64,000 nt of DNA from Qipengyuania sp. (GTDB lineage Bacteria; Pseudomonadota; Alphaproteobacteria; Sphingomonadales; Sphingomonadaceae), in NCBI GenBank assembly GCA_019745075.1, contig JAIETR010000024.1, positions 33,739-97,738 of the forward strand. Direction: 5' to 3'. The position numbers and the translations under genes were made by a program. The notes beneath the pieces are model-generated. The model saw nothing but the letters and a program-made list of their open reading frames with translations. It made no database searches and had not been told where the DNA came from. Positions 61,120 through 63,926 of this stretch are shown one piece after another. Numbering within the stretch: the first letter of the stretch is position 1; the number at the start of each line of letters is the position of its first letter.

Positions 61120-61481
61120 TTCTCCGCAACCGTCGCCGGGGCAAAGCCGCTAGCGCTGGACGCATCGTTGCCAGCCCTCCTTCCGAACGCAGCAGCGAGC
61201 ACGCTCCAAACCGATCGTCTTACTCGTCGCGCATCATCGACGGTGCTCGCGGCGACAGGCCTCTCCGCTTACGGGGGTATGGGGCACCACTTCCGAATTC
61301 GGCAGGGTATCCGCGCATTGCTCGCAAGCCGTCATACCTGCGCCTTTAGAAACGACGGTAACGCTCGAATCCATTCGCCCGCTCCAGCCACCATCGGCGA
61401 TTCATTCCATTCGACGCGGAATTTCGGCGCTTGGGCGAATGATCGCTTGCCCTGCCGGCACATGCCGGTAGCGCTCCAGTG

Positions 61482-63659
61482 ATGTTGTATCATCATCTCC
61501 CGCGCCATGCCCTGCTAGTGTCGTCTTCGCTCTTCTTCGCCCTTTACCCCGCGGCACAGGCGCGGACCCAGGATGGCGCGCCCCCACCCGACAGCGCGTC
61601 CCCGCCCGTCGCCGACGAAGCGCTCGGGGACGATCTGCACGATCGCCGCCGCGATTATTCGGGGCAGATCGTGGTCAGCGCGCAAGGCCTGAAGCAGCTC
61701 GACGTGCTCGCGGGCACCTCGGTGCTCACGGGCGATGAATTGCAGCGCAATCAGAGCGGCCAGATCGGTGAGGTGCTCGCCAAGCTGCCAGGGGTGACCG
61801 CTTCCGGTTTCTCGCCGGCGGCGTCGCGCCCGATCCTGCGCGGCTTTTCCGGCGAGCGCGTGCGCATGCTGATCGACGGGCTCGGCATCATCGACGCCTC
61901 CAACACCTCCGACGACCACGCGGTCGCCATCGACCCGCTCACCGTCGAACGGATCGAGGTGCTGCGGGGTCCGGCGGTGCTGCTCTACGGCAGCCAGGCG
62001 ATCGGGGGCGCGGTCAATGTCATCGACAAGCGCATCCCGCGACGTCTGCCCAGCGAAGCGGTGCATGCCGATGGACTGGCCAGCTTCGACAGCGTCAACA
62101 ACCAGCTCCAGCTCGGCGGCTCGGTCGATGCGCCGCTGGACGGCGGCTTCGTGATTCACGCCAACGGGAGCTGGCGCGACGCGGGCGATCTGTCGGTGCC
62201 GGGCTACGTGGTTTCACCCCCGCTGCGCGCCAGCCTGCTCGCCGATGCCGCCGCGCGGGCCAGCCAAGGCCGCGCCGGCGCGGCGGCCGAGCTGCGCGAG
62301 GCGGCCGACCGCCGGTTCGTGCTCCCCAACAGCGCTTTCACGAGCTGGACGGCGAGCACCGGGATCGCTTTCTTCGCCGGAGAGAGCACATTGGGCGCCT
62401 CGGTGAGCTGGTACGATTCGCGTTACGGCGTGCCCCAACGACCGGGCGCGGGTCGCGCGCCCCTGGAGGGGATGGCCGAGGAGGAACCCGCGCCGGTCAC
62501 GATCGACCTGTCTCAGTTTCGCGCCGATCTGCGTGGCGAGCTGGCGCTGGGGGAGGGCATGCTGGAGCGCCTCGTGACCCGCGTCGGCTACAGCGACTAC
62601 ACCCACACCGAGTTCGAAGGCGGCGTGGCCGGCACGGTGTTCGACGTCTCGGGTATCGAGGCGCGCGCCGAATTCGTGCAGCGGCCCATGGGCGGGCTGA
62701 CGGGTTCGTTCGGCGCGCAGTATTACTTCCGCGACTTCGCCGCGCTGGGCGAGGAAGCCTTTGTCGCCCCGAACCGCACCGACCAGCTTGGCATCTTCAC
62801 ATTGCAGGAGTTCGGCATCGGCCCGGTCGAAATCGAAGCCGGCGGGCGCTACGAACGGACCGGCGTGCGCTCCGCCGCGCTCGGGCTCGCGCGCGATTTC
62901 GGCGCGTTCTCGGGAGCGGTGGGGCTGAGCTACGATCTCGGCGGCAATTTGCGCGCCGGCATCAACGCCAGTCGCGTCCAGCGCGCGCCTTCGGGCGAGG
63001 AGCTGTTCGCGAACGGCCCGCATGTCGCCACCCAGGCCTTCGAAATCGGCGATCCGAACCTGCGGCTGGAGCGCGCCTGGGGCCTGGAAGGCTATCTGCG
63101 GGGGCGTCTCGGCCCCGCCGAGGTCGGCCTGGCGATCTACCGCAACCGGTTCCAGGACTACATCTATCTCGCGCAGACGGGGGCGGAAGTGGACGGGTTG
63201 CCGGTCTTCGCCTTCCGGCAGGGCGGCGCCAACCATTTCGGGCTGGAGGGCGAGCTCAGCCTCCCGCTCTACCGTCAGGACGGCTTCACCCTGCGCGCGG
63301 ACCTGCGCGGCGACTACATCCGCGCCGAGCTCTCAGACGGCGCCCCGCTGCCGCGCATCCCGCCGCTCGGCCTGCTCGGCGCGCTCGAGGCGCAGACCGA
63401 TGCCGTGGATGCGCGCGTGGAACTGCAGTGGTTCGCCGCGCAGAACCGCGTGGCGCCGGTCGAGACTCCCACCGAGGGTTTCGCCTTCGTCAACGCCTCG
63501 CTGGCGTGGAAGCCGGTGCGCGGCAACGACAGCATCACCCTGCTGGCGCAGGCGGACAACATCTTCGACGCCGAGGGGCGCCGCCACGCCAGCCTGACCA
63601 AGGATTTCGTCCCGCTGCCCGGACGCAATCTCAAGCTCGGGGCCCGGTTCAGCTTTTAG
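61482..63659 (+). CDS. TonB-dependent receptor, ZnuD-like
   Basis: QIVVSAQGLKQLDVLAGTSVLTGDELQRNQSGQIGEVLAKLPGVTASGFSPAASRPILRGFSGERVRMLIDGLGIIDASNTSDDHAVAIDPLTVERIEVLRGPAVLLYGSQAIGGAVNVIDKRIP; ends ...LGARFSF. Confidence 0.92.
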   Translation: MLYHHLPRHALLVSSSLFFALYPAAQARTQDGAPPPDSASPPVADEALGDDLHDRRRDYSGQIVVSAQGLKQLDVLAGTSVLTGDELQRNQSGQIGEVLAKLPGVTASGFSPAASRPILRGFSGERVRMLIDGLGIIDASNTSDDHAVAIDPLTVERIEVLRGPAVLLYGSQAIGGAVNVIDKRIPRRLPSEAVHADGLASFDSVNNQLQLGGSVDAPLDGGFVIHANGSWRDAGDLSVPGYVVSPPLRASLLADAAARASQGRAGAAAELREAADRRFVLPNSAFTSWTASTGIAFFAGESTLGASVSWYDSRYGVPQRPGAGRAPLEGMAEEEPAPVTIDLSQFRADLRGELALGEGMLERLVTRVGYSDYTHTEFEGGVAGTVFDVSGIEARAEFVQRPMGGLTGSFGAQYYFRDFAALGEEAFVAPNRTDQLGIFTLQEFGIGPVEIEAGGRYERTGVRSAALGLARDFGAFSGAVGLSYDLGGNLRAGINASRVQRAPSGEELFANGPHVATQAFEIGDPNLRLERAWGLEGYLRGRLGPAEVGLAIYRNRFQDYIYLAQTGAEVDGLPVFAFRQGGANHFGLEGELSLPLYRQDGFTLRADLRGDYIRAELSDGAPLPRIPPLGLLGALEAQTDAVDARVELQWFAAQNRVAPVETPTEGFAFVNASLAWKPVRGNDSITLLAQADNIFDAEGRRHASLTKDFVPLPGRNLKLGARFSF

Positions 63660-63926
63660 AGCCAGATGACATTAGGTTGCGCCACCGTGATTGCCCGGAG
63701 CGGCTTCGTGGCGAGGCGCGGCGCGCGGCGCGGGCTGGTTGCCCGTGCAAGCGTCGCAACGCTGCCACGGGGCCGCTCCGGGCAACCGCCTTGCGGCGGG
63801 TCGCTTTTGGCCCAGCGCAGCGTTGCTCGTCGGTCACTATGCGACAGCATGGCTCCCTCCTCGCGCCTTGCGCTGAGCCAAAATCGACTCCGTCACGGCG
63901 GTGCTACCTAATGTCATCTGGCTCTA
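63657..63926. mobile_element. MITE-like/structured repeat with 34-bp terminal inverted repeats and two internal hairpins
   Basis: TAGAGCCAGATGACATTAGGTTGCGCCACCGTGA (63657-63690) vs reverse complement of 63893-63926, 31/34 identical. Internal IRs: 63691-63712/63764-63785 (20/22) and 63801-63819/63869-63887 (17/19). Confidence 0.7.

Follow-up and report, generated by a model that had tools for sequence, protein, structure and literature searches.

The window, a 64,000-nucleotide (nt) stretch of a Qipengyuania sp. contig, carries near its right-hand end a gene for a TonB-dependent receptor and, beginning within the stop codon of that gene, a 270-bp palindromic element with the following features.

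61479-63659, + strand: TonB-dependent receptor open reading frame (ORF) of 726 amino acids; context lying outside the element, named from sequence reading
63657-63926, no strand: whole element with both TA dinucleotides; other copies exist, with empty sites at some of them
63659-63924: element proper, GAGCC...GGCTC, without the flanking TAs
63657-63659, + strand: TAG stop of the receptor gene, made of the target TA and the first base of the element; the site, TTAG, conforms to YTAR
63657-63690, + strand: left terminal inverted repeat, TA followed by GAGCCAGATGACATTAGGTTG; IS630-like end, with 13/17 internal matches to the IS630-type end L306 (p = 0.0006)
63893-63926, − strand: right terminal inverted repeat, 31/34 complementary with the left repeat
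63691-63785, + strand: hairpin 1, an inverted homologue of hairpin 2; its wobble pairs favour the + strand
63691-63712 / 63764-63785: arms of hairpin 1, 20/22 complementary
about 63786-63796, no strand: small CCGC-CTT-GCGG hairpin between the two long hairpins, seen in the fold; this layout recurs in other elements
63795-63894, − strand: hairpin 2, about 100 nt, with a covarying stem and conserved internal-loop strands; its wobble pairs favour the − strand
within 63795-63894: ATGC-GCAT tip hairpin of hairpin 2
63820-63837, + strand: conserved loop strand GCGTTGCTCGTCGGTCAC of hairpin 2
63853-63868, + strand: conserved loop strand CTCCCTCCTCGCGCCT of hairpin 2

As the original prediction described, 34-bp inverted ends enclose two long hairpins, TA lies on either flank (63657-63658 and 63925-63926), and the insertion falls exactly at the receptor stop. 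A three-way junction was proposed there; the small third hairpin brings the fold closer to a four-way junction. The fold is strong on both strands (MFE of −195.4 kcal/mol with z = −13.6 for the + strand, and −191.4 kcal/mol with z = −14.2 for the − strand), and none of 200 shuffles reaches the MFE in either case. Comparison of the element with Rfam gave no match above the gathering score. Short, bounded by inverted repeats and without a conserved ORF, the element has the general form of a MITE.

Copies of the element and their distribution

Further copies, which the original prediction expected, are present in the same genome (3.02-Mb assembly in 82 contigs, 93.8% complete). Near-full elements lie on contigs C26, C33, C1 and C40, and internally deleted ones on C18 (163 bp, with hairpin 1 only) and C12 (138 bp), besides partial copies. 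Hairpin 2 was also captured in a covariance model; this model, R1, was made from the + strand of 14 copies, gives rough E-values and has 13 matches in this genome. The matches include a second subfamily (L228-L230), the ends of which, TA followed by GGGTCCAAACCCAATCACCG, are quite different. A separate repeat, CGTTCGTGTCGAGCG(A/T)AGTCGAGACA together with its inverse, adjoins the copies at C12:44111-44248 and C57:13593-13747 (L033 and L035), and looks like a distinct sphingomonad palindrome family.

By nucleotide search, 5 of 36 genomes of the same genus carry one copy each and the others none. R1-positive genomes number 25/151 in the family, 19/385 in the class and 41/399 across the phylum, and members of the group occur in named records of Sphingomonas, Novosphingobium, Sphingopyxis, Erythrobacter and Aureimonas. 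Matches on plasmids come from Azotobacter, Halomonas and Pseudomonas aeruginosa, and no gene is annotated beneath them. A plasmid search for the window element or its end found none, as did a phage search for a related core; one motif match on a viral contig was discarded, the motif having no element around it. A class of about 190 bp (L110, L131, L137 and L158), common in Sphingomonas and Aureimonas, lacks hairpin 1, has a small CGTCATCGCCC-TGC-GGGCGACCGC hairpin in its place and often bears IS630-like GAGCGGTTTCCGACCA ends.

The core was also seen in records of Bacillus sp. 2B10 (L097, L100 and L103) and in metagenome-assembled genomes (MAGs) labelled Verrucomicrobiia or Elusimicrobia. These distant records may stem from contamination or mis-binning and not from transfer; MAGs that carry the label of another phylum could likewise be mis-binned. 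This core was not found described in the open-access literature searched here, and the wide group to which it belongs is apparently undescribed.

Insertion at TA and on stop codons

The group is mobile, as its multiple copies at unrelated sites and the empty sites in relatives demonstrate. When the flanks of copies from the window's genome are joined, they align continuously in genomes of the same genus. At the empty site of the C18 copy, a TAG, TAA or TGA stands immediately after ...TTC in relatives; that of the C40 copy likewise is a stop codon, and that of the C9 copy was seen in a weaker alignment. The single copies in relatives have empty sites at about 80-95% identity, with a lone TA within CTAG at L044 and L043, and stop codons at L040 and L041. 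The elements of the group are therefore insertions with TA duplication, as in IS630-derived MITEs. The empty-site orthologues that had been predicted therefore exist, at other copies of the group; the contig of the window copy ends 74 bp beyond the element. At the L041 site, G002 (L370/L397; G002:C15 48270-48879) retains a mere 9-base end remnant, TAGGACACGCC, a deletion footprint just 5′ of the start codon of a gene that is cysI-like by eye, and the element is intact in G036.

The expectation that other copies too would be flanked by TA was borne out in part: among 111 elements, TA is found on both sides of 48, on one side of 41 and on neither side of 22, and 43 of the 48 with two-sided TA lie at YTAR sites. 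Copies C1 and C40 have CA and GA, respectively, on one side in place of TA. In one-sided elements generally, the base adjoining the non-TA side is usually A (AA 15, CA 10, GA 9; several TAA), an excess of which simple TA decay gives no obvious account.

Stop codons are a frequent landing place. In all, 105 genes read into elements; 45 of them end precisely at TA plus G and 6 more at a TAA one base out, the remaining offsets being scattered. Elements lie on stops in 43/111 cases; for non-coding YTAR sites in comparable DNA the figure is 66/377, which gives an odds ratio of 3.0 (p = 7e-6; genes were called from simple ORFs and third-position GC, without annotation). Given this YTAR background rate, stop placement derives mostly from TA targeting and tolerance, and a moderate excess remains. 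With G as the first base of the element, a stop codon that is hit at its TA is restored as TAG, which makes insertions at stops harmless and lets them be retained, a pattern seen in these counts. At the receptor gene, too, the initial G would have restored the stop and made the insertion tolerable.

A conserved core beneath variable ends

The interior of the element is conserved while its stems and ends vary, and the varying arms stay complementary. Within elements, arm complementarity is 90% for the ends, 93% for hairpin 1 and 86% for hairpin 2, whereas between elements the same arms are 44%, 49% and 65% identical, respectively. The loop strands are 87% identical in this comparison set, many loci of which had been fetched by an exact loop pattern; when loci chosen in that way are left out, the loops of hairpin 2 are 79% and its stems 69% identical. 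Across 30 pairs of hairpin 2 in 14 copies, we counted 57 double-change cells, against 15.6 in shuffled and 4-14 in slid controls. The window copy shares 34-45% of stem and 79-85% of loop positions with three loci of the same phylum that lie outside its class (L355, L357 and L361), and, for L355, 34% of the stem and 85% of the loop. The length of hairpin 2 varies between 97 and 103 nt.

Hairpin 1 is related to hairpin 2 in inverted orientation: R1 matches it on the opposite strand about 107 nt away, and in an Elusimicrobia-labelled MAG (L117) the two hairpins receive near-equal R1 scores. The core would thus consist of two inverted homologous hairpins of about 100 nt, the stems of which change but stay paired around constant loop strands.

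The mismatches within the stems differ between the two hairpins. Read in the + sense, with near-duplicates removed, those of hairpin 1 comprise 49 G.U and 8 A.C pairs, and those of hairpin 2 comprise 6 G.U and 40 A.C pairs, placing G.U on the − strand; the bias of hairpin 2 runs counter to the + strand on which R1 was built. Each hairpin is therefore wobble-tolerant on the strand that is transcribed inward from its own side, and a single wobble strand for the whole element proved wrong. The ends show a weak lean towards the minus side. This asymmetry suggests that each hairpin folds in transcripts from its own side, although strand-biased mutation or recognition of single-stranded DNA could also produce it. 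We infer that the pair acts as a two-way RNA barrier, with selection on the RNA of convergent transcripts.

Mobilization and possible role of the core

The ends were compared with a catalogue of TA-flanked ends from IS630-type (PF13358) and IS5-type (PF13340) loci, with p values obtained by fixing the first three bases and shuffling the rest. At p < 0.01, where about 0.5 would be expected, 8 of 54 element-end clusters match the end of an IS630 or IS5 transposon; at p < 0.05, 15 of 54 do. The original prediction looked for an IS630-family element with matching ends, and L306, in a related genome, is a transposon with similar ends; it is the one IS630-type locus to match the window-type end, its transposase frame looks short, and close variants of the window-type end match less well (p = 0.006-0.02). 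The second subfamily in the window's genome (L228-L230) instead matches an IS5-type end, L282 (14/17, p = 0.0002), whereas the best match of the window copy is IS630; the G068 and L045 copies also match IS5-type ends. The two transposase families that these ends recall are unrelated to each other. Since the same core occurs with IS5/IS427-like ends, it appears to have changed its end coat at least once.

The window's genome, at 93.8% completeness, yielded no transposon with matching ends, and the core was absent from the 74 autonomous IS630-/IS5-type loci searched. Neither transposase is clearly associated with the element: the IS630 type is present in 8/31 element-positive and 11/40 element-negative genomes, and the PF13340 type in 15/31 and 14/40, respectively.

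Taken as a whole, the group most likely consists of non-autonomous elements that TA-targeting transposases mobilise in trans, and we consider it likely that the window element is one such MITE-like transposon, combining transposon-imitating ends with a conserved two-hairpin core. Its outer layer of 30-34 bp would imitate the ends of TA-targeting transposons, here IS630-like ones; a matching transposase, presumably of that type, would act in trans, cutting the ends and inserting the element at YTAR so that TA is left on both sides. The MITE reading of the original prediction is thereby upheld and extended by the covarying double hairpin, which is common to elements with unrelated ends, including IS5-type ones.

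An ordinary MITE of one IS630 subfamily, with passive inner hairpins conserved through shared ancestry and palindrome correction in replication, is unlikely. IS630-like ends, TA duplication and empty sites would suffice for it, and palindrome arms can remain complementary through template switching, with no need for selection. Passive filler, however, would not hold about 80-85% loop identity in distant proteobacteria with stems at 34-45%, nor would the core then stay constant under IS5-like ends. ERIC, Correia/NEMIS and RUP, which we take to be examples of IS630/Tc1-mariner-type MITEs, are likewise short, geneless, intergenic and strongly structured, with inverted ends and a duplicated TA; unlike the present group, they combine a single end sequence with a body conserved in sequence, whereas here the ends vary and the core consists of loops and covarying stems. 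IS630/ISY100 elements insert at TA and duplicate it (PMC2170065), and effects on RNA processing are known for Correia and ERIC (PMC10969869).

Resemblances to IS5-type elements are also partial. IS427-group insertion sequences are about 850 bp long with 2-bp repeats (PMC3281130), as are, in length, the IS5-type loci examined here; the IS5-family IS427 group and its MITEs thus share with our group a 2-bp duplication and autonomous relatives of about 850 bp, and their ends, GGGTCCAAACCCAATC, are common to the second subfamily. The ends of the window copy, by contrast, are IS630-like. MITEPsy1 of Pseudomonas syringae has IS5-like ends and a CTAG/YTAA target, but is 100 bp long with a 4-bp duplication and no comparable core described (PMC3189936).

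It is quite improbable that the hairpins are REP- or REPIN-like sequences that a RAYT (Y1 tyrosine transposase) recognises in single-stranded form, the long ends being secondary. Inverted homologous hairpins do resemble REP dimers, and RAYT-like Y1 genes occur in 7/31 element-positive compared with 1/40 element-negative genomes, two of them in the window's genome. Like the present elements, GTAG-/CGTC-tagged REPs and REPINs form inverted hairpin pairs at gene ends; TAG stops are likewise supplied by GTAG REPs, and long palindromes that contain REP dimers have been reported (PMC3733652). Their hairpins, however, measure 20-40 nt rather than about 100 nt, and the window element has long transposon-like ends and no flanking RAYT. 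The GTAG tag is absent from the hairpin feet, which read GGCGG / CCGTC, with TAG at the element ends only; CGTC REPs have a 20-40 bp hairpin, an unpaired 5′ CGTC and a CCA tail, whereas here CCGTC is paired, on the 3′ side of 100-nt hairpins. A RAYT as mobiliser was rejected, as elements are absent around the RAYT genes and the sequences on either side of ten RAYT loci bear no similarity to the elements; no Y1 match is present in many of the genomes with several copies (G164, G172, G190, G068 and G196), and TA duplication with DDE-transposon-like ends points elsewhere. The two RAYT-like genes of the window's genome, L248 (C3) and L249 (C13), are flanked by short GGGACAGTCCC or GGGGACAG repeats, and no others were found among the genomes of the genus searched.

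That the element is an immobile fixture of gene ends, serving the host as a regulatory RNA or bidirectional terminator, is very improbable. Such a feature would fit the strong covariation, the strand-specific wobble and the 3′-end location, but the empty sites refute a purely resident feature, and patchy presence (25/151 family genomes), near-identical copies at unrelated sites and the lack, by eye, of a T-tract 3′ of the hairpins speak against it as well. A terminator or structured RNA, which the original prediction had offered as an alternative to mobility, may still describe the core; such a role can accompany mobility and does not replace it. A small minus-strand protein can scarcely be credited: the 64-amino-acid frame containing AKSDPPQGGCPERPRG noticed earlier exists, and many alphaproteobacterial copies have a Shine-Dalgarno-like AGGAGG 5 nt 5′ of an ATG, but the frame is not conserved across copies, being broken by the length variation of hairpin 2, different in L045 and altered in L350-type copies, in which the ATG is shifted and AAC GAC GAG TAA comes after it.

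For the trans-mobilized element that we favour, the wobble asymmetry and the stop-codon location indicate that the core probably serves as a barrier or 3′ protection: each hairpin would fold in RNA from the gene on its own side, and the folded core would form a two-way barrier or a protective 3′ structure for convergent transcripts. More tentatively, and with rather more doubt than confidence, the core could be a selfish or regulatory module in its own right, long established in proteobacteria. It would repeatedly trade its ends for those of whichever TA-targeting transposase, IS630- or IS5-type, is at hand, and selection would act on its folded RNA or single-stranded form more than on its ends.

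Classification of MITEs usually relies on the ends and treats what lies between them as debris; here the body is conserved and the ends are variable, in elements found in about 10% of the genomes sampled across the phylum. The element would explain why spurious hypothetical proteins recur in the annotation of sphingomonad genomes. The joining of TA to a terminal G, which gives TAG, also offers a simple route to harmless insertion on stop codons. If the core does switch transposase coats, it would parasitise several transposon families simultaneously and would need an explanation of its own.
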